From NCBI RefSeq assembly GCF_024701375.2, contig NZ_CP113910.1:7192001-7256000 (forward strand): a stretch of 64,000 nucleotides of DNA, given 5' to 3'. Below the pieces are notes generated by a model that was not told the origin of the DNA, made no database searches, and worked only from the letters and a program-made list of their open reading frames with translations. A program made the position numbers and the translations under genes. Each line of letters starts with the position of its first letter. Within the stretch, counting starts at the first letter, position 1. This DNA is from Streptomyces sp. KMM 9044 (lineage in GTDB: Bacteria; Actinomycetota; Actinomycetes; Streptomycetales; Streptomycetaceae). This document shows positions 2,938-64,000 of this stretch, one piece after another.

Positions 2938-3516
2938 GTGGCGATGTGGGACCGGGTCAAGGACCAGGCCAAGGCGCTCCAGCAGTCCCAGAGCGCGAGG
3001 TCGGGAGGAGGGCAGCACGGGAATCCCGGACCGGGACGGGCCGGCGGCCATTCCCGAGGCTCGTCCTCCGGGGGCTCCAGGGCCCAGCTGATGGGGCTGC
3101 TGAAGTCCCAGCTCGCGTCGGCGAAGACAGAACTCAAGAGCGGCGCCTACCGGGACGCGAGCATGGCGATGTGCGCGCTGGTCGCGGCCGCCGACGGGCA
3201 CGTCGAGCCGGCGGAGCGGCAGCGCGTGGAGGAGCTGATCGTCTCCAATGAGGTCCTGCAGAACTTCCCGCCGGACCAGCTCCGCAAGCGGTTCAACGAG
3301 CACGTGGACCAGCTCGTGGCCAACTTCGAACTGGGTAAGGCGAGGGCCCTGCAGGATATCGCGAAGGCGTCGAAGAAGCCGGTCGAGGCACGCGCGGTCA
3401 TCCAGACCGGCCTGGTCATCGCCGGTGCCGACGGCGGCTTCGAGGCGAGCGAGCAGTACGCCATCCGTGAGGCCTGCGCGGCCCTGGGCCTCTCGCCCAC
3501 GGAGTTCGGAGTCTGA
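2938..3516 (+). CDS. TerB-family tellurite-resistance-like protein
   Basis: About 192 residues. I chose GTG 2938 because GAGG at 2926-2929 stands 8 nt upstream; GTG 2929 and ATG 2944 are alternatives. The N-terminus is a Gln/Ser/Gly-rich linker (AKALQQSQSARSGGG), then a helical TerB domain from about residue 55: LLKSQLASAKTELKSGAY, MCALVAAADGHVEPAE with the acidic metal-site-like DGHVEPAE, and a second acidic repeat GADGGFEASEQYAIREAC. TerB proteins are cytoplasmic/membrane-associated acidic helical proteins of stress (Ter) systems. No other ter genes are nearby, so a role in tellurite resistance is not implied. Confidence 0.85.
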   Translation: MAMWDRVKDQAKALQQSQSARSGGGQHGNPGPGRAGGHSRGSSSGGSRAQLMGLLKSQLASAKTELKSGAYRDASMAMCALVAAADGHVEPAERQRVEELIVSNEVLQNFPPDQLRKRFNEHVDQLVANFELGKARALQDIAKASKKPVEARAVIQTGLVIAGADGGFEASEQYAIREACAALGLSPTEFGV

Positions 3517-3608
3517 GAACCCCCCCGGGCCTCTCGGACCCTCGCACCGTTCCTGCCGCGGGCCCCGGAGAGGGCAAGCGGCAGGAGCGGCGGTGAGAGC
3601 GACCTCCT

Positions 3609-4709
3609 TCAGTTCCTGGCGGTCACCCCATCGATGAAAGCGGCATCGAGGGTATGGCCGAGCAGGTGCAGCGGGGCGGCCGACACCCCGGCCCGTTCCA
3701 CCGCGTCCCAGTAGGCCAGAGTCACCCCGACGTCCACCAGGCCGTGCACCAGCGAGGAGAAGCCGAGGAAGGTGAAGAAGAACTGGGAGGTCAGGGGAAG
3801 TCCGTCGGCACGCCGTGGGACCACGTCCTCGTGGGCGCGTGCCTCCTCCGCCTCGGCGGCTGTGCGACGCAGGGCGCACTCGAAGTCCCATCCGCTGGTG
3901 GTGTGAGAGGCGTTGTCCTCGGCCGGACCGGCCGGACCGGCCGGACCGGCCGGACCGGCCGGACGGGAACGGCCGAGGCGAACGGGCCGAAGATCCGGTG
4001 TGCGCCGGGCAGCGCGTTGTCCCGGCCGCTCACCGCCAGCCCCACGATCAGGTCGGACTGGCGGGTCAGTGCCACGAGTTCCTGGTGGTAGGCGGTCATC
4101 AGGGGCGCGTACAGGGTGGTCCGCGCGTGGGACGCGGGCATACGCAACGCCTCCGTCAGGGAAGCGCCGAGCGTGAACTCCGAGGAGTGGAAAAGGACAT
4201 CGCGCCGGGCGGCCCCGGCACGGGTGGTCGCGCCGCTGCCACCGGCCACCGCCGTGGTGCGCAGCACCGGCGGCCGGTACGGGGCGCACACCCGGGTCCG
4301 GCGTTCCGCCGCCGGCCCGGAGCCACCGGTTCCGTGGCCGGTCTCCGCCGACCACCGGACATGGTCACGGAAATCACTGCGCAGCAGCGGGAGACCAGGT
4401 GTGGTGCTGTCGCCGCCGTCTGCCAACCGGTCGTACACCTCGGTCAGTTCCTGCATGAGCAATGCCGCGCTGTACCCGTCGCCGATGACGTGATGGGCGT
4501 GCACCAGCAGGGTGTGCTCTTCTGGAGCGAGGCTGAGCACCTGAAGGCGCACCAGCGGCCAGGCCCAGGTCTCGAGGCGCCGTTCCGCCTCGGCCGCGGC
4601 TTGTTCGTCCACCTCGGCAGGGGACGTGACCGTCTCGAAGACGACCGGCAGACGCAGGGACGGCGGCAGTTCCTGCTGGACGGAGGGACGGGCTCCGGCG
4701 GGGAAGACG
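3609..4709 (-). pseudogene. NRPS relic: remainder of last condensation domain
   Basis: Continues the C domain beyond the insertion: ARPSVQQELPPSLRLPVVF, then HHxxxDG as HAHHVIGDGYSAALL, the conserved-type RSDFRDHVRW, LYAPLMTAYHQELV and GLAVSGRD. A frame change follows the 9-bp repeat tract near 3921; the true C-terminus (SQFFFTFLGFSS, LHLLGHTLDAAFIDG) is in the other frame and ends at 3609. The catalytic histidines are preserved, so decay is recent or partial. Confidence 0.75.
3921..3964. repeat. 9-bp tandem repeat GGCCGGACC, about 4.9 copies
   Basis: Five head-to-tail units inside the NRPS condensation domain, encoding repeated Pro-Val-Arg on the minus strand. The unit keeps the frame, but a frame change sits at its border with the following codons. 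Confidence 0.85.
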
Positions 4710-5000: not shown

Positions 5001-6297
5001 GCCCGTATCTTCGCCGATCCCCCCTGCCGTTGGCCAACTCGCCGACCTCGCCCTGTGGGAGGCCGAGCTCGCCACCGGCCCTGCGGCAGTGGAGTCCAAG
5101 CTGGTCAGCAGGTTGCGGCAGGTCCCGGACCTGCGCGCGAAGCGTGGCCGACGCCACGCCCTCGCGGTGATCCTGACACTGACCGCGTGCGCGACGCTGG
5201 TGATCGGCGGCGACTCGATCGCCGCGATCTGGCAGTGGGCGACCCGTGCCCCGCAAGCGAAACTGGCCCGCATCGGCGCCCGGTACGACCCGCTGGCCGG
5301 CCGCTACCTCGTGCCGAGCGAGCGCACCTTCCGGCGAGTGCTCGCCCATCTGGACGCCGACGCCCTGGACGCCGTGACCTGCGAATACACCACAGACCTC
5401 GCGCGCGGCACCGTCCCCGCGCCCGAGATCCCCGCCACCCCGGGACCGGTGGAACGCGAACAGCGCCGCGCCGCTCAACGCTCAGCCGAGCACCCGGTGC
5501 CGGACGGGCTGCTGCCGACCGCCGCCCTGGACGGCAAGGCCCTGGCCGGCGCCCGCACCGAGAGCGGACGGGTCTTCCTGGTCGGCGCGATCGACCACAC
5601 CAGCGGCGCGGTCCTGGGCCAGAGGCAGGTCCCCGACAAGCGCGGCGAGGGCGAGGCCGCACGGGCCCTGCTCACCCGACTCGACCTGCCCGGAAGGGTG
5701 TTCACCCTGGACGCGCTGCACACCACGAAGAAGACCGCCCGCCTGATCACAGGCCCTCTCCACAGCCACTACGTCCTGATCCTCAAGGGCAACCAGCCCC
5801 TCGCCCACGCCGCCGCCCAGGCGCTGCTGACCGGCGCGGACGCCGACTTCACCGAGACCACCGCGATCGACGACGACCGCGGCCACGGCCGCACCGAACG
5901 CCGCACCCTGCGCACCGCACCCGCCGACGACACCCTGTTCCCCGGCGCATCCCAGGTCTTCCGCCTCCGCCGCGACACCGGCAACCTCGACGACGAATGG
6001 ACCAGCAAGGAGATCGTCTTCGGCGTCACCAGCCTGCCGCCCGACCTCGCCGGCCCCGCTCACCTCAACCACTACGAGAGAACCCACTGGACTGTGGAAA
6101 ACAAGATCCACTGGGTGCGGGACGTCACCTTCCGAGAAGACAACTCCCAGGTCAGGACCGGTACAGCACCCCGAGCCCTGGCCGGCTTCCGCAACCTGGC
6201 GATCAGCACCATCCGCCTCGCCGGACGCGCCAACATCGCCCACGCCCGCCGCGACCTCCTCCGCCACGAAGACGCCTTCGCCGTCTACGGCATCTGA
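4999..6297 (+). CDS. ISAs1 family transposase
   Basis: 432 residues, the usual length. N-terminal DDE_Tnp_1-associated part with [20 protein letters not shown], then the first catalytic Asp in [12 protein letters not shown], the second in [13 protein letters not shown], and the C-terminal [20 protein letters not shown] block carrying the catalytic Glu, followed by [14 protein letters not shown] 4999 is the start, with GGAG upstream inside a hairpin. The frame is intact and the element ends are intact, so it may still be mobile. Confidence 0.92.
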
Positions 6298-7982
6298 CCA
6301 ACCACCACGGGACCGGACATCACACAACTACGCCGGGGCCGTGAGGGGCGGTCGGGGCTGCTGTTCATGATGGCGAGGGCGAGCTGGAAGCGTCCGCCTG
6401 GGTCTTCGGCGGCCTGGCTGGTATCGGCGGGTGTCGGGTCGGGTTTGCAGGTCTCTGCCGGAGTCGGGTGGTTGGCGTTGTCCGGTGCTGTCCCGGCGGT
6501 GGCGTCGCTGCGGTCGTGCAACGTGATCTCGACGCTTTCGACCGGGGTGCTCGTGGTGGGGCGGGCCTGGCCGTGCCAGGAGTGGTAGCGCGAGATCGGC
6601 GACTTCACCTTCCGCGCGCTGATGCGGTGCCTGCGCGGGGGGAGGAGGTTGTCCGTGACCGCGGTGATGATTGCCTCGGGGGTGCCGGTGACGCCCTCGG
6701 CCAGGGTGATCTGGGCGCGGGCCGCGGTCAGGGCGTGGGTGAAGCTCGTGCGGTCGGGATCGGCCCCCGCCGAGACGGCGGCCTCGGTCATCGCCGTCCG
6801 CAGCACCTGGTAGGCGGTCAGTGCGGCCCACAGTTCCTGCTCGATGCCGAAGCGGTCGCGTGAGCGCAGGACCCGGCCCTTCATCAGGGTGGCGCGCAAA
6901 GCGAAATAGGCGGATTCGATTTCCCAGCGTTCCGTGTAAAGCCTGACCAGGCGTATCGCGGGGTCGGCGGCGGGGTCCAGGAGCGTGGTGGCCAGGCGGT
7001 AGCGGCCGCCGGCGGTGGTGCCGTCGGCCAGGCGCACGAGGAGGTCGGCCTCGATGATGCGGACGGTCAGGGTTCCCAGGCGGGCGAGGTAGGAGCCGTC
7101 GGCGAGCGGGCGGACCAGGGGTGGGCGGCGGGTGGACTTCAAGCGGGCAACGAACTGTGCGCCGGTGCCCGCGACGCCGGCCAGGAAGGCGTTGGAGTCG
7201 AAGCCCCGGTCCACCAGCACCAGGTGGGAGGTGTTCAGTAGCGGGAGGAGCCGGGTGGCGTAGGTGGTCTCGCCTGTGCTGGTGGGGCCGAAGCAGGCTC
7301 CGAGCAGGCCCCGGGTGCCGGTCTCCACGAGGGTCATCAGCATCACGGTCGGGTAGCCGGCCCAGGCGAGCCGGTAGCGGACCTTCCCGAGCCAGCCGCG
7401 GGCGCGTTCGCTGTCCGGCGCCTTGATCGAGGAGCAGCCGTCGAAGGCCACGGTGCGCCAGTGCCGGTAGGACACCCCGGGCGTCGTGGGTGGGGCCAGT
7501 GGCACGGCAAGTGTCTCGAACAGGGTCTTGAACGGGGCAGGGGTGAGGCGTCGGCGCAGGTGCCGCAGCGCGGTGCCGGAGACCTTCGGCGCCAACGGGC
7601 CTGTCGAAGCGGCCAGTTGCTGCCAGACCCCGATGCAGGACAACTCGGGGAAGAGGGCCAGGGCCAGGACGTAGTACACCCCGACGCGGGAGGGCAGCAG
7701 CCGCAGCCGTCGCTCGCCTCGTCCGGTCTCGTCGAGGATCGCGTCGACCAGTTCGAAGGGAATGAACTGTGTCAACCCGCCCAGATGGCCCGGGGCGAAG
7801 ACCCCGGCGGCCACCGTGATGGTGCGCGTGATGCTGGTGATGGCAGAATGGAGACGCAACGAGACCCCGGATCAGTGGACATTTCTTCGCAGAAACCATG
7901 ATCCAGCAGGGGTCTCGCTGTGCGTTCACCCACCCCGACGCCGCCTCGACACCCCGTCTGATCGGCTAACTTCTCGGCCTTG

Positions 7983-53386: not shown

Positions 53387-55313
53387 GTGTGTCCAGAAGG
53401 TGATTGTGAGGTTCTGATGTAGAAGACGGGAACGAACAGTTGCCATGCTGTTGTGGAGATGAAGGTAGGTCCTTCGGCATCGGCATGCAGGTGCAGGTGT
53501 CAAACCACCATGAGCTGCTGCGGTGAATGAGCCGTGGTGGTGAGCGTCATGGAAAAGCCGTACTAAATATGGCAGGTGTGGGCTGAGAAGGCGAACGCAA
53601 GTGAACCGCCGATGACGTGTCGTAAAGCTTAGACGACATCAAAACCAGGGCCTCAATGCTGTCCTGGGACAAGCCAGACGGGAACCTGTTTACTGGTCTG
53701 GCGGTGTCCGGCATGAAGGTGGCGCGAGCTCAGTCTGGGCTTCACAACGGAACTGGAGAACTCCTCGACGCGAAACCGCGATCCATGGGTTGACGTGGCT
53801 CGCGAGAGGGAGAGGCGCAAGTGGCGAAGAGTCATGAGGGCCGGAGTACCGGTCGCGCGTCGGGAGGGCGGAACGTCCCGTAGTAGTGATGAAACCTCCG
53901 TAATAGGGGTGGAGCGAAGGGGACGTGTTGTTGGGTGTCGATCGGCGATCAACCAGCGATGGGAGGAATCGGATGGTCGAGACAAGGCCAGCGGACAAGC
54001 CGTTTGATATTCCGAGGCGGCTGGTCTGGAACGCATACCTGAAGGTCAAGGCCAACAGGGGAGCGGCTGGGGTGGATGGGCAGTCTTTAGCGGAGTTTGA
54101 GCAGGATGAGAAGAACAACCTGTACAAGCTGTGGAACCGGCTGTCCTCGGGAAGCTACTTCCCTCCACCCGTGAGAGCGGTTGATATTCCCAAAGCCGGC
54201 GGTGGGATTCGGAGCCTTGGGGTTCCGACCGTGGCCGACAGGATCGCCCAGACGGTAGTGGCTATGACATTGGAGCCTGAGGTGGAGCAGATCTTCCATC
54301 AGGACTCGTATGGCTACCGCCCGAGGCGGTCCGCGCTGGATGCGGTGGAGACGTGCAAGCAGCGGTGCTGGAGGCATCCTTGGGTGATCGACCTTGACAT
54401 CCAGGGCTTCTTCGACAACGTGCCGCACGGCCCCATCAACGCGGCAGTGGAAAGGCATACCAATCTTCCGTGGGTTCTGCTGTATGTGAAACGGTGGCTA
54501 GTCGCCCCCGTACAACAGCCCGACGGAACGCTCGTCAGGCGGGAAAAGGGGACTCCCCAAGGGTCTGCTATTTCACCATTGTTGTCGAATCTGTTCATGC
54601 ACTACGCCTTTGACGCGTGGTTGGTCCGGGAGTACCCGGCGATCAGATTCGAGCGGTACGGCGACGATGCTGTGGTGCACTGTGCCAGTGAGAAGCAGGC
54701 GATTTTCGTCCGCGACATCATCGAGGGCAGGCTGCTGCAGTTCGGATTACGTCTCCATCCGGAGAAAACCAGGGTGGTGTACTGCAAACAGGAAGGTCGT
54801 GAACGGGAGTTCCCGGTCACGAAGTTCACGTTTCTGGGGTATACCTTCCGTCCTCGGGCTGCCCGCTTGCGGGATGGGAGGCTGAAGACCGGCTTCCTTC
54901 CCGCAGTGAGCGAAACAGCCATGAAGTCCATGGCGAGGACTATCCGGAGCTGGCGACTGGGGCGCTGTACCGAGCTGAGCTTTCAGGAGATCGCCGCGAT
55001 GATCAACCCCGTCGTGGCGGGATGGATCAACTACTATGGGCGCTTCTACAAGTCCAGGTTGATCAGGTTTCTGGAACAGCAGATCAATCCGTTCCTGGTG
55101 AAATGGGCCCGGAGGAAGTACAAACGGTATCGTCGTGCTTCAAGAAAGGCCCGGAGAAGGCTGGCTGAGATTGCCTCAGCATTCCCGGGCATGTTCGCTC
55201 ACTGGAAGCATGGCGCGTTGCCCACTGGTTCAACAATGGGAGCCGTGTGAGTCGCGAGGTTCACGCACGGTTCTGAGAGCGGCGGTGGGTGAAATTCCCG
55301 CCGCCGACTCACC
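53387..55313 (+). mobile_element. Group II intron 1, antisense in IS3 copy 2
   Basis: 1927 bp, bounds set by comparison with copy 1. The 5' end is GTGTGTCCAGAAGG, fitting the GUGYG consensus. Domain V is seen at about 55240-55277: GAGCCGTGTGAGTCGCGAGG then TTCACGCACGGTTCTG. Domain VI with CGGCGGTGGGTGAAATTCCC follows and the intron ends near GACTCACC. About 585 nt of ribozyme domains I-IV precede the reverse-transcriptase gene. Confidence 0.9.
53973..55250 (+). CDS. ltrA: Group II intron reverse transcriptase/maturase (LtrA type)
   Basis: 425 residues from ATG 53973 (GGGAGGAA upstream). RT blocks: NRGAAGVDGQSLAEF (RT0), VDIPKAGGGIRSLGVPTVAD (RT1), YGYRPRRSALDAVETC (RT2), VIDLDIQGFFDNVPH (RT3), GTPQGSAISPLLSNLFMHYA (RT4), FERYGDDAVVHC with the YxDD box as YGDD (RT5). 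Domain X/maturase follows (IAAMINPVVAGWINYYGRFY), and no HNH endonuclease is seen. It splices and mobilises its own intron RNA. Confidence 0.93.
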   Translation: MVETRPADKPFDIPRRLVWNAYLKVKANRGAAGVDGQSLAEFEQDEKNNLYKLWNRLSSGSYFPPPVRAVDIPKAGGGIRSLGVPTVADRIAQTVVAMTLEPEVEQIFHQDSYGYRPRRSALDAVETCKQRCWRHPWVIDLDIQGFFDNVPHGPINAAVERHTNLPWVLLYVKRWLVAPVQQPDGTLVRREKGTPQGSAISPLLSNLFMHYAFDAWLVREYPAIRFERYGDDAVVHCASEKQAIFVRDIIEGRLLQFGLRLHPEKTRVVYCKQEGREREFPVTKFTFLGYTFRPRAARLRDGRLKTGFLPAVSETAMKSMARTIRSWRLGRCTELSFQEIAAMINPVVAGWINYYGRFYKSRLIRFLEQQINPFLVKWARRKYKRYRRASRKARRRLAEIASAFPGMFAHWKHGALPTGSTMGAV

Positions 55314-56689: not shown

Positions 56690-56746
56690 AGCCTCCGCGC
56701 GCAGGCGATCCACCTAACTCATGATCTGAATCTCAGACAGGACCTA
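56690..56746 (-). repeat. 57-bp solo copy of the IS5 left end
   Basis: Exact reverse complement of 48490-48546 (from TAGGTCCTGTCTGAG to GCGCGGAGGCT). No transposase follows: it is a relic of a second IS5 copy, and the IS701 element is inserted right at its end (CCTAG). Confidence 0.9.
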
Positions 56747-56747
56747 G

Positions 56748-56888
56748 TACTCCAGCAGGATTTCGCTGTCTGACCTGGTCTTTTCGCCGGGTGGCGGGAG
56801 TGTAGCGGGACTTCGATCGTGCGGGGGCGGTCTCACGGAGACCGCCCCTCGATCGTGCGACAACGCCGCAGGTAGTGACAGCGGCGGG
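56748..56888. repeat. Long terminal inverted repeat of the IS701 element, left
   Basis: 141 bp; first 124 bp identical to the other end. It includes a hairpin GGGCGGTCTC/GAGACCGCCC (56825-56848) flanked by direct copies of CGATCGTGCG. Confidence 0.9.
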
Positions 56889-56954
56889 CGACTGCTTGGC
56901 GTCGGCGGCGCCAGTTCGACCAGCTCAGCGCGTGGTGTCGTCCGCGGTGTCCGC

Positions 56955-58025
56955 TCAAGTGCGGGGGCCGGGCACGACAAGCTGCCAGGAGTCGCCGAAC
57001 CTCCGCCACTGTGAGCCCGATGACCCCGGGTGTCTCACCTGTTCCGCCCCTTTTTCCCAGGACTGGTGTGCCGTGGCGGCCAGGAAGGCGTGGGCAAACA
57101 TGGCCAGAGTGATGTGCCGGTACCAGCCCACGTAGCGGCGGACCTCGTACTGGTCCAGGCCGCACTCGTTCTTCGCGGCCTGGAAGCACTCCTCGATCGC
57201 CCAGCGCGCCCCGGCGACCCTCACCAGTTCCTGGACGGTGACCTGAAGGGGCGCGTAGGCGAGGTAGTAGGCGATCTCGTCGGGCTTGCTGATGCTGCGC
57301 CGGGCCAGTGCCCACCGCATCCGGTGCGGGACCTCGCCCTGATAGTCGAATTCGGCGACGGCCGGCAGCCGCACCGCTGCCCAGTGGTAGACGCGGGGTC
57401 CCTTCGCGCCGTCGCCGCAGGAGATCTTCTCCCATGCCTCGTCCGGGGCCTGCGCGAACAGGCCCTCGATCCGTGAACAGCCCACGGTGAACTGGGACTT
57501 GGGGACGGCCAGTACGTAGCCGACACCCGACTGTTCCAGCAGCCGGCGGAATCGGTTGTCCTGGCCGTAGGCGGAATCCGCGGTGACCCAGGTAATGGGC
57601 AGAGGCGAGGCCAGGGCCCGCAGCACCATGTGCCGGGCCAGTTCGCCTTTGGTGGCGAACTCCCGCTCGTCGGGGACCCTTGCGGTGCGGCAGCGGTCCC
57701 GGTCCTCGGTCCAGGACTTCGGGAGGTAGAGCTCGCGGTCGACCAGGGCCCTGCCGCGGGCGGTGGCGTAGGCGGCGAAGACACCGATCTGGCAGTTCTC
57801 GGTCCGGCCGGCGGTTCCGGAGTACTGGCGCTGGACTCCGGCCGAGGTGGTGCCCTTCTTGATGAACCCGGTGTCGTCGATGATCAGAACACCGTCGGCC
57901 TCGCCGAGCTTGGCGGCGACGTATTCCTGCAGGTCGTCGCGGATGTCATCGGGCTCCCACTTTGATCCGGCGAGGAGGTGCTGCAGGCCGTCAGGGGTGG
58001 AGTGGCCGGCCTGTTCGGCCAGCTG
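56955..58025 (-). CDS. IS701 transposase, second exon (356 codons plus stop)
   Basis: DDE nuclease of IS701 type: begins QLAEQAGHSTPDGLQHLLAG, first Asp in GVLIIDDTGFIKKGTTSAGV, second in TWVTADSAYGQDNRFRRLLE, Glu in RWAIEECFQAAKNECGLDQY, end WRRFGDSWQLVVPGPRT. It has no start of its own at the exon border; it joins exon 1 (60198-60377) once the intron is removed, giving Trp-Gln at the junction (ARKNSW/QLAEQ) and a 416-residue protein. Confidence 0.92.
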   Translation of the reverse strand, partial: QLAEQAGHSTPDGLQHLLAGSKWEPDDIRDDLQEYVAAKLGEADGVLIIDDTGFIKKGTTSAGVQRQYSGTAGRTENCQIGVFAAYATARGRALVDRELYLPKSWTEDRDRCRTARVPDEREFATKGELARHMVLRALASPLPITWVTADSAYGQDNRFRRLLEQSGVGYVLAVPKSQFTVGCSRIEGLFAQAPDEAWEKISCGDGAKGPRVYHWAAVRLPAVAEFDYQGEVPHRMRWALARRSISKPDEIAYYLAYAPLQVTVQELVRVAGARWAIEECFQAAKNECGLDQYEVRRYVGWYRHITLAMFAHAFLAATAHQSWEKGAEQVRHPGSSGSQWRRFGDSWQLVVPGPRT

Positions 58026-60197
58026 GTGAGGTCGACTCGGGGCGCCCTGCTGGTGTTTCCACCAGCGGGTTTCCCCGAGCCGCCTCCCGAACCGGACGTG
58101 CCCGCTCTCCAGGCATCCGGCTCTCCACAAGCCCTCTCAGACGGCCGCGGCCGTCGTGCTCCCACTGGGCCAGGGCGAGGGGATCTTGTTCCCGCGATAC
58201 AAATAGCGGTTGGTTCGCACCTTCGCGCACCTGAACAAGACCACCTCGTCATCAGCAGGCCACCATCGGCCCGCGCAGTAACGACGGCGAAGACTCTTCC
58301 AGTTGGACCGGCGGTGCTTTCGCCGCAGCCACCCGAAGACCTGCCGCCAGGTGAAGGCCGACAGGTACTGGAAGGTCGCGGACGACACCCCGTGCCGGAA
58401 GTACGCCGTCCAGCCGCGCAACACCGGGTTGAGATGGTGCAGCACGACTGCCAGCGGCAGGTTCGTGTCCTGTCGGCACAGCGTCTTGACCTTCTCCTTG
58501 ACGGCTTGGAGGGCCTTCTTGGAGGGGTAGAGGTAGACGTAGTGCTTCTGGGTCCCACGTTTGCGGTGACGCTGGAGGCGCCACCCGAGGAAGTCCAGCC
58601 CCTCGTCGATATGGGTGATGGCCGTCTTCTCCACCGACAGACGCAGTCCCATCGGGGCGAGTACTTCCGCCACCTGGGTGCGCATGTCTTCGGCCTGCTC
58701 GCGTGTCCCGGTCACGGCGATCAGAAAGTCGTCCGCATACCGGAAGAGCCGGTAGTTGGGCAGATTCTGCCGACGTCGCCGGGCCCGCTGGCCTTGCGTG
58801 GAGTTCGGCCCGCCCGGACCGGCCGCGATGAACTCATCGAGAACCGACAGGGCGATGTTGGCCAGCAGCGGCGAGAGGATCCCACCCTGCGGAGTGCCGG
58901 AATCGGTGTCCTTGGACTGGCCAGCCTCGCTGAGGATGCCCGACTTCAAGAACGCCTTCACCAGGTCAAGGACGCGCCGGTCTCCGACTCGGCGACGCAC
59001 CCGGCCCATCAGGGCCGCGTGGTCGATCGAGTCGAAGCACGCCTCGATGTCCCCCTCCACCATCCACTCATAGGAGTTCTTGGCGAAGTGGTGCGCCTCG
59101 GCGAGCGCGTCGTGAGCCCGGCGCTTCGGGCGGAACCCGTAGGAGCACGGGAGGAAATACGCCTCGAAGATCGGCTCCAGTACCAGCTTCAGGGACGCCT
59201 GGACCACCCGGTCCCGCACGGTCGGAATACCCAGCCGACGGCGCTTGGCCGTCCCCGGCTTGGGGATCATCCTTTCCCGCACGGGAAGCGGACGGAAGGT
59301 GCGGTCCTTCAGGTCGGACCGCACCTCGTCGAGGAATGCCTCGACGCCTTGCCCGTCCTCCACGGAACGGGCCGTCTGCCCGTCCACTCCGGCCGAGCGA
59401 GCGCCCCTGTTCCTCCTCACCCGAACCCACGCGACCAGCAGGAACGCGGGATCAGCAACGAGATTGAACAGGTCATCGAACCGGCGATCACGATCGTCGG
59501 TCGCCCAACAGTGCAGTTTGGTCTGCATCTCCAGTACCCGGCGCTCGGCCTTGAGCAGCCCGAACTCCAGCGCGTCGGTATTCACCAGCGACCTCCTGGC
59601 ATTGCAGCATCCTCCCTGCCGACTTGCTGGCCCCCTTCGCCATGCACGGAGCTTTCCTCCGCTCGGACTACTACGAGGCCTCCGCCCCACCTGCGGACCT
59701 CAGCCGGCAACGGGCCTGCCCTCCTCGCCGGACCGGCTGTCCGGAAGGAAAGGGCGACCGCAGGCGGTTCCCACGTTCACCATGTGCCGATCGGCCAGGT
59801 CGGCGTCCCGCTACTACCCCGGCAGCATCACCACGCCTACGCCGCAGACCTTCAGCGTGGCCTCCCCACCGGCAGTTGGAGACCGGCTTCGGAGTTGACC
59901 GCCCCAGCCGAAGCAAGCGGTCACGCACTGCACCCCGGGCCCATATCCGCCAGATTGGAGCCCGGTGACAAGACTTACGGGGCTTTACACGGATTCCTCT
60001 TCGTACGCCTTCTGGCCTTGCTTGCCGAACCCGACGCGTCTGGCAGTACCGCGCCGTCCCGGCGTTGTCAGGGCTGCTTCCCGTCCTCACCGGCGTTCCC
60101 CGGCCCGGACTGCCCTCAGCTTCTACCCGGCCGCTGCGACGGCCCGGCGGTAGAGGTCTCCCACCTCCACTCGGTCACATGGCGCCTCGTGGCGCAC
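58026..60197 (-). mobile_element. Group II intron 2, sense in the IS701 transposase
   Basis: 2172 bp. The 5' end reads GTGCGCCACGAGGCGCC (60197 leftward), fitting GUGYG. Near the 3' end domain V is seen: AGAGCCGGATGCC, loop side GGAGAGCGGGC, ACGTCCGGTTCGGG (about 58086-58124), then a domain VI stem (GGCGGCTCGGGG ... CCCCGAGTCGACC) and the last bases CTCAC. It is on the same strand as the transposase, so splicing would restore that gene. Different from intron 1 in sequence and protein. Confidence 0.92.
58137..59585 (-). CDS. ltrA: Group II intron reverse transcriptase/maturase (LtrA type), second
   Basis: 482 residues from GTG 59585 (AGGAGG upstream). RT blocks: RNRGARSAGVDGQTARSVED, PLPVRERMIPKPGTAKRRRL, GIPTVRDRVVQASLKLVLEP, YGFRPKRRAHDALAEAHHF, MVEGDIEACFDSIDHAAL, SGTPQGGILSPLLANIALSV, NYRLFRYADDFLIAVTG with YADD. 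Domain X is HLNPVLRGWTAYFRHGVSSA and the end CAKVRTNRYLYRGNKIPSPW. No HNH nuclease, so movement probably uses nicked or single-stranded targets at replication forks. Confidence 0.93.
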   Translation of the reverse strand: MNTDALEFGLLKAERRVLEMQTKLHCWATDDRDRRFDDLFNLVADPAFLLVAWVRVRRNRGARSAGVDGQTARSVEDGQGVEAFLDEVRSDLKDRTFRPLPVRERMIPKPGTAKRRRLGIPTVRDRVVQASLKLVLEPIFEAYFLPCSYGFRPKRRAHDALAEAHHFAKNSYEWMVEGDIEACFDSIDHAALMGRVRRRVGDRRVLDLVKAFLKSGILSEAGQSKDTDSGTPQGGILSPLLANIALSVLDEFIAAGPGGPNSTQGQRARRRRQNLPNYRLFRYADDFLIAVTGTREQAEDMRTQVAEVLAPMGLRLSVEKTAITHIDEGLDFLGWRLQRHRKRGTQKHYVYLYPSKKALQAVKEKVKTLCRQDTNLPLAVVLHHLNPVLRGWTAYFRHGVSSATFQYLSAFTWRQVFGWLRRKHRRSNWKSLRRRYCAGRWWPADDEVVLFRCAKVRTNRYLYRGNKIPSPWPSGSTTAAAV

Positions 60198-60377
60198 CCA
60201 GCTGTTCTTGCGGGCGACCGGGGCGAGCAGCCCGCGCACGTAGTCCCGCATGCGGCGGCGGAGCTCGACTCGGCCGAAGCGGTGCCCGATGGTCAGGAAG
60301 AGATCGTCCAGTTCGAGGTCCCACTGCGCGGCGGCAGACTCGGTGATCACCCTCGGAGGCTGCCCCGCCGCCGTCAC
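60198..60377 (-). CDS. IS701 transposase, first exon (60 codons)
   Basis: From GTG 60377 to the intron border at 60198: TAAGQPPRVITESAAAQWDL, LDDLFLTIGHRFGRVELRRR, MRDYVRGLLAPVARKNSW. This is the standard N-terminus of IS701 transposases. Unspliced, it reads into the intron and stops at 60123 after 84 codons. Confidence 0.9.
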
Positions 60378-60504
60378 TATCTGCGGCGTTGTCGCACGAT
60401 CGAGGGGCGGTCTCCGTGAGACCGCCCCCGCACGATCGAAGTCCCGCTACACTCCCGCCACCCGGCGAAAAGACCAGGTCAGACAGCGAAATCCTGCTGG
60501 AGTA
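60364..60504. repeat. Long terminal inverted repeat of the IS701 element, right
   Basis: Partner of 56748-56888. The transposase start codon (GTG 60377) lies inside it. Confidence 0.9.
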
Positions 60505-60577
60505 CTAGGACGCCGCTGGGCGGCGGCCATGCCGCGGACGCCGGCGACGGAGCCCGCGGCGACTGGACGGTCCGGCC

Positions 60578-62984: not shown

Positions 62985-64000
62985 CTTCCAGGACCGAGTG
63001 CCCAGACTGTTCCTGCTGCCAGCAGCCTCCGAAGCCCTCCGATCGGCTGCCCCGCCCCGCATACGCGGACCGGTTCGGCCCGACGGTCCGCGACCGGATC
63101 CGGCTTGCCGACACGGCGCTGCGGATCAGGATCGAGGACGACTGGTCGGGTGGCCCCGGACGCAGCGGCAACGAGATGGTGTTCGGCGGCGGCAAGGTGA
63201 TCCGTGAGTCGATGGGACAGTCCATCGCGCCGCGCGACCCGGGCAGAAGTCGTGAGTCCGTCGGCAGCCTCGCCGTCGAGCCGCCCGACACGGTCATCAC
63301 CGGCGCTGTCGTGCTGGACCACTGGGGCATCGTCAAAGCCGATATCGCCATCCGGGACGGCAACATCGTCGCCCTCGGCAAAGCGTACAACCCGGAGACG
63401 ATGGATCCTCTGCACGAGGAAGCCGGTCCTCACAACGACATCGGCCCCGAGCCCACCGACTTCGCCATCGGCCCGGACACCGAGGTCATCGCGGGCAAGG
63501 GCAGGATTCTCACCGCCGGGGGCATCGACACGCACGTCCACTTCATCTGCCCCGATCAGGTCAAAGAGGCACTGGCCGCAGGTGTCACCACGCTCATCGG
63601 TGGCGGGACGGGACCCGCAGAGGGCAGCACGGCCACCACCGTGACCCCCGGTTCATGGCACATCGCCCGCACCTTCGAAGCGCTGGACGCCTTCCCGGTC
63701 AACATCGGACTGCTCGGCAAGGGCGCCACCATGTCCGAGAAGTCCATGTACGACCAGGTGGACGCAGGCATCATCGGCTTCAAGATCCACGAAGACTGGG
63801 GTGCCACCCCGGCCGTCATCAGAAAATGCCTTCAGGTCTGCAAGAAGACCGGTGTACAGCTCGCACTCCATGCCGACTCCCTGAACGAGGCAGGTTTCGT
63901 CAAGGACACCATCGACGCCATCGGCGGCTGCTCCATCCATGTCTTCCACGTCGAGGGCGCCGGCGGAGGCCATGCCCCGGACATGATCAAGATGGTGGGT
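62981..64000 (+). CDS. ureC: Urease alpha subunit, 5' part
   Basis: From GTG 62981, with AGGAG at 62971 and a GTGA overlap with ureAB; runs off the right edge (340 codons seen of about 570). Catalytic subunit. Seen: [20 protein letters not shown], the His-x-His nickel ligands in [13 protein letters not shown], the carbamylated lysine in [14 protein letters not shown], and further ligands in [12 protein letters not shown] and [15 protein letters not shown]. The rest of the operon (accessory ureEFGD or their like) would follow outside the window. The N-terminal cysteine cluster CPDCSCC is an odd addition. Confidence 0.95.

Follow-up and report, generated by a model that had tools for sequence, protein, structure and literature searches.

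How can the transposase gene of an insertion sequence (IS) be interrupted by a group II intron and still specify its protein? This question is raised by an IS701-family element found in a 64,000-nucleotide (nt) stretch of the Streptomyces sp. KMM 9044 genome (NZ_CP113910.1, positions 7,192,001 to 7,256,000), referred to here as the window, whose own numbering is used throughout. Comparative analysis indicated that the interruption is very probably a mobile group II intron that homes into IS701-family transposase genes, where its splicing would rebuild the transposase mRNA. An earlier sequence-only reading had located this arrangement at 56744..60508. The location was right, but the span includes the target-site duplications, CTAG at 56744..56747 (right) and 60505..60508 (left), and the element proper, designated type A, occupies 56748..60504 on the minus strand. 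The inverted arms (56743-56888 and 60364-60509), which take in CTAG plus one more base, are 146 nt long and 99% complementary, leaving terminal inverted repeats of 141 bp. A 4-bp target duplication is the rule in the IS701 family, and the element has both this duplication and the terminal inverted repeats. Its exon 2 matched the IS701 model NF033540 (NCBIfam) with 403.7 bits (cut-off, 150), which identifies the product as an IS701 transposase. Exon 1 (60377..60198, 60 codons) and exon 2 (58025..56955, 356 codons plus stop), both on the minus strand, join at Trp-Gln without a shift into the open 416-codon frame that had been claimed. The intron follows codon 60, at a codon boundary and in sense orientation. 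The GTG start codon at 60377 is uncertain, as three uninterrupted relatives (L023-L025) are annotated with a start further downstream.

The intron itself (60197..58026, minus strand) is 2,172 nt long, with borders defined by the end of an Rfam match, the reading frame, the other copies and the empty sites described below. Group II introns have the consensus ends 5′ GUGYG and 3′ AY, which are fitted by GTGCG...CTCAC. Domains V and VI (58026..58125, minus strand) were recognized by RF00029 (48 bits), the match ending exactly at 58026; the last 105 nt have a fold z of -7.2, and the single bulged A in the minimum-energy fold of domain VI, at 58032 on the minus strand, is the predicted branch point. 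The Rfam D1-D4 models gave no match to this intron at E 0.1, and no group I intron family was present among the four Rfam matches in the window at gathering score, so the element does not qualify as an IStron. The intron codes for a YADD reverse transcriptase (RT)/maturase (59585..58137, minus strand) with RVT_1 and GIIM domains and a TIGR04416 match of 368.7 bits (cut-off, 300), in which the domain search detected no HNH domain. All the intron features named in the sequence-only reading, that is, sense orientation, the GTGCG start, domain V/VI and an RT devoid of HNH, were therefore recovered. The most likely RT start is the GTG at 59585 (483 codons including the stop), preceded by AGGAGG (59597..59592, minus strand), a likely ribosome-binding site. 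Classification of the protein through solved structures was abandoned because several intron RTs had near-equal scores (184.9, 184.7 and 180.9 bits); the intron is probably of IIB-like design. A near-mode search of a phage collection found no match to the intron.

Uninterrupted relatives of the host elements, for which the sequence-only reading had proposed a search, were found in other genomes. Three plasmid-borne IS701 elements flanked by CTAG are continuous exactly at the type-A junction: over about 1,585 nt, L023 is 96%, L024 94% and L025 87% identical. A relative of a second host type described below, type B (L126, 92-93% over 1,534 nt), also lacks an intron at the type-B junction. Since the exon borders are the same in these empty copies, the possibility that removal of the intron would leave the frame unrestored was not borne out. 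The window exons and those of the closest empty copy have a ratio of nonsynonymous to synonymous substitution rates (dN/dS) of 0.14, with 9:3 synonymous to nonsynonymous changes in the window lineage and 8:4 in the empty lineage. This ratio was rejected as proof of selection after insertion because the changes may predate it.

The source genome (G000) carries the intron six times. Five copies are identical over the 2,172 nt, and the sixth (L004/L080) lacks one nucleotide in domain VI. The hosts belong to three IS701 types, A (the window, one place), B (three places) and C (two places); compared with type A, the exon-2 protein has 69-70% identity in type B and 48-49% in type C, and all six introns are placed at KN(S/G)W|Q(L/I)AE. 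Of the type-B copies, L002 and L003 are each flanked by CTAG at the two ends, and three positions in exon 1 and one downstream distinguish them. The third, L004, contains a further DNA segment inside exon 2. Both type-C copies have a common in-frame TGA, differ at four downstream positions and show no clear target duplication. Among the 11 rows of IS701-like matches in this genome, the other 5, at four places, represent fragments or diverged copies, and the motif search detected no target site in them; all six recognized sites are therefore occupied. Saturation was rejected as a rule, since genome G128 keeps four uninterrupted IS701 matches, one of them read as an empty site in L075. Exon 1 of L002 has a short type-A-like tract (-40, -34 and -17) and keeps the type-B letters at -6 and -4; co-conversion was rejected as proof of the order of homing because the tract stops short of the junction. 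Three of the four type-A and type-B copies adjoin the same element end, GTCCTGTCTGRGATTCRGATCATGAG (window 56700-56743; flanks of L003 and L004), which suggests a shared CTAG target.

The guide segments with which the intron would find its site were sought by covariation, as the minimum-energy fold alone gave many candidate locations. An alignment was made of the first 620 nt of 39 introns that were 66.7-100% identical to the window intron and differed from one another in the last 14 exon bases plus the first 300 intron bases; the positions of each intron were then tested for pairing with its own upstream exon. Exon-binding site (EBS) 1, CCAACU in an 8-nt hairpin loop (59879..59874, intron 319-324), covaries with intron-binding site (IBS) 1, AGCTGG (60203..60198, exon -6 to -1), whose TGG is the conserved Trp codon. 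The score was 0.73, against 0.47 for the next in register, with a z of 11.8 against reassigned exons. EBS2, UCUUGU (59973..59968, intron 225-230), covaries with IBS2, GCAAGA (60211..60206, exon -14 to -9), with a score of 0.83, a next-best of 0.54 and a z of 11.0; all these segments are on the minus strand. At least five of the six pairs are formed in 29 of the 39 introns at EBS1 and in 33 at EBS2. Because reassigning exons ignores relatedness, the test was repeated after collapsing to distinct combinations, and the mean number of pairs was 4.78 with the own exon versus 2.69 over all combinations for EBS1 (32 combinations), and 4.92 versus 3.16 for EBS2 (25 combinations). The EBS1 hairpin is present in predicted folds, yet it is no more stable than shuffles (z -0.67). 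A candidate EBS3, G at 59814 (intron 384, minus strand), may pair with exon 2 base +1; its covariation is weaker, and a G-A mismatch results where that base is A. The EBS1 and EBS2 covariation fixes the 5′ splice site and suggests homing by reading the DNA for a conserved transposase motif. Together with the six copies that this genome holds at a single site, it indicates that the arrangement is not due to chance. A motif search over the fetched loci that required K-N, with W, F, Y or C admitted at the last codon upstream of the junction, showed TGG at that codon in 41 of 41 distinct empty sites listed; in L128, fetched afterwards, K-S replaces K-N and TGG is still present. The case shows how a homing intron can track a whole transposase family: the DNA that it reads is kept constant by a conserved protein motif whose last residue, Trp, has a single codon.

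We propose that the intron RNA recognizes, via EBS2 and EBS1, the DNA encoding the conserved motif R-K-N-x-W, that it would reverse splice after the Trp codon, and that it would be copied in by its own RT, which has no endonuclease domain. Given the codon-boundary site and the sense orientation, splicing would restore the transposase mRNA exactly. Two routes of spread could follow, homing into new IS701 copies and travel as a passenger on any IS701 that still transposes. As to the need for splicing, the unspliced exon 1 frame stops after 24 intron codons, so that only a truncated product of 84 residues would be expected. Exon 1 holds 11 residues that do not vary across 22 IS701 transposases. 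In the structure predicted for L085, a related transposase (mean predicted local distance difference test score, pLDDT, 75; predicted template modelling score, pTM, 0.80; pLDDT 65-75 in blocks around the junction), the junction lies within helix 50-56 of an N-terminal helical bundle. These features make it unlikely that a product of exon 2 alone would work, and the full-length transposase appears to depend on splicing, in agreement with the sequence-only reading. The annotation of NZ_CP108679.1 (L022) has an IS701 transposase (5164-6354) that starts inside the 3′ end of the intron, with exon 2 beginning at 5269; this is an artefact that may recur.

The named close relatives are from Streptomyces and Kitasatospora. 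Introns are identical at aligned positions within genomes (six in G000, two in G128 and three Streptomyces blattellae contig pieces), and those of different genomes differ by 4-10% (14 introns compared), the pattern predicted by homing after arrival. The intron has recently spread, targeting one transposase family. The host genes were surveyed at 24 selected loci with a close match, repeat fetches, interior pieces (e.g., L072) and distant relatives being excluded; some of those kept (L059-L061; L067 and L071) are pieces from contig ends and may represent a single insertion. A junction was readable (at least 84% identity) at 23 of the 24, and 21 of the 23 run in frame into IS701 exon 1 or exon 2; the sequence-only reading had suggested looking for the intron in other IS701 elements. 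The junction of L079 is not in IS701 sequence, and its intron was matched over the last 88 nt only; L026 fell below the cut-off, although an IS701-like exon 2 starts there. L077 (G388) holds a derivative of 823 nt (3472-4294, reverse complement) from which most of the RT is missing; it too occupies this IS701 site, and both of its ends match. Some match was present in at least 198 of 392 genomes of the genus, many of them short or distant; such counts are lower bounds, as two to four candidates were scored per genome (two for the 392-genome count).

Nesting of an intron in a transposase gene, and the idea that it controls the host element, are already published for other bacteria, and the IS701 case adds to them. 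The sequence-only reading had contrasted this locus with known introns, described as lying mostly in places that break the gene, a contrast that is not supported, in view of RmInt1 (PMC4238363) and E.c.I4 (PMC3522654). RmInt1 of Sinorhizobium meliloti, the direct precedent, is, like the intron described here, an endonuclease-less group II intron within an IS transposase-coding region (ISRm2011-2); it homes into IS copies, and a functional transposase requires its splicing (PMC4238363, PMC5894124). PMC4238363 states that splicing is essential for IS mobility and proposes that poor splicing limits the IS. For the present locus, the mutual control of intron and IS suggested in the sequence-only reading is a hypothesis. 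RmInt1 differs in its IS630-type host and its IIB3/class D assignment, in contrast to the IS701 host and the three diverged types in one genome found here. E.c.I4 of E. coli and Shigella occupies specific positions in the IS3-like transposases of IS629, IS911, ISEc16 and ISEc31; it is likewise one intron in several transposases of one IS family, with less than 1% divergence per strain and sites saturated or nearly so in some strains (PMC3522654). Its IS3-like hosts and bacterial group are different. Ll.LtrB also resides in a gene that serves the movement of a different mobile element, the pRS01 relaxase gene of Lactococcus, and is reported to lower host-gene expression via intron-mRNA pairing (PMC6003770); it is a group IIA intron in a relaxase of a conjugative plasmid. 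IStrons also combine a ribozyme with an insertion sequence (PMC4227781), but there a group I intron is part of the IS, whereas here a separate group II intron lies within the transposase gene. Among the matches listed in a search of the open-access literature on group II introns with IS701 or Streptomyces transposases, no title dealt with such a case. The locus offers a clean natural system in which to ask if a homing intron restrains its host transposon or rides with it: a single intron sequence shares one genome with three transposase types, its guide sequences are known, and empty relatives elsewhere can serve as controls.

Several observations weigh against homing into IS701 genes followed by restorative splicing. 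EBS1 pairs with five of the six IBS1 bases in types A, B and C; the mismatch, at -4, may make splicing or homing suboptimal. In 8 of the 39 introns, three or fewer pairs are formed at EBS1 or EBS2, and the z of EBS3, from 25 introns, is 3.7, while several further positions reach 2.9-3.4. One close relative, L074, lies outside IS701, in a nucleotidyltransferase-like gene (a label from protein reading). Because of the type-C TGA in two copies and the interrupted type-B copy, only three of the six spliced frames (A, L002 and L003) are intact. A durable composite of intron and IS701, in which splicing would suffice for transposition, unlike in RmInt1, and the free intron RNA would act in trans, through one conserved motif, on the transposase mRNAs of types A, B and C alike, is rather doubtful; it fits the different places of the type-B and type-C copies and the absence of an empty recognized copy in G000, which is not proof. 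It is quite possible that the intron acts instead as an RmInt1-like brake, with splicing so poor that an occupied IS701 is effectively dead and the intron survives through homing and through IS copies that moved before invasion. The mismatch at -4 in all three types, the damaged spliced frames in three of six copies and the occupation of six of six recognized sites in G000 are consistent with such a brake, as is the correct splicing of less than 1% of RmInt1 exons in vivo reported in PMC4238363. Type A and two type-B copies have nonetheless kept open spliced frames, and the numbers of synonymous and nonsynonymous changes are similar in the window and empty lineages, with the reservation about their timing given above.

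Two further explanations would dispense with splicing or with homing, and both are very improbable. Ribosomes could re-initiate on unspliced RNA after the RT stop, so that a leader encoded by domain V/VI would replace the first 60 residues of the transposase. The exon-2 frame is indeed open for 37 codons into the intron in 13 of 14 introns, in 12 of the 14 it is the RT frame right behind the RT stop, and the NZ_CP108679.1 annotation begins the transposase inside the intron. An open stretch of that length through domain V/VI is, however, unremarkable at an estimated G+C content of about 71%, and such a product would forgo the 11 invariant residues and break the predicted N-terminal helix. Alternatively, the introns could be plain relics made identical by recent gene conversion or copying among IS elements, not by active retrohoming. 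The A-like tract of L002 (-40 to -17) suggests that conversion between copies occurs, but it falls short of the junction, and simple conversion would hardly account for the introns of type C, which is 48-49% identical in exon 2 and keeps its own letters as far as the junction; in other species, too, the site is used by introns whose guide sequences match it.

More distant relatives of the intron (about 66-76% identical) occupy other genes. Eight joined host proteins compared with Pfam gave HTH_Tnp_1 (IS3-type) twice, DDE_Tnp_ISAZ013 twice, and DDE_3, rve, Methyltransf_19 and DDE_Tnp_1 once each. In L034 the intron is antisense in a DDE_Tnp_1 transposase (Pfam), and L037 is similarly antisense by reading; a splice-compatible orientation is therefore not universal in the wider group. 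L036 and L042 are apparently antisense in DDE transposase genes as well, judging by similar flanking letters only; we take the hosts of these four to be IS5-like. In L038 (Pfam) and L053 (by reading), the intron is sense and in frame in a non-transposase host, a Methyltransf_19 gene, at its GGKD(H/N)Y motif. In L045, L046, L048 and L049, related introns lie just inside the apparent 5′ ends of other group II introns, with GTGCGCC..GAGGCGC repeated, in a twintron-like nesting.

The window also contains a second, different group II intron at 53461-55313 (plus strand), recognized by RF01999 (D1-D4) and RF00029 and coding for a 441-amino-acid RT. By sequence reading, it is apparently antisense in an IS3-family OrfB, a host gene that its splicing cannot restore. 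At 63238-63569 (minus strand), a match to RF02514 (5_ureB_sRNA) is antisense to the start of an open reading frame that presumably encodes a urease.

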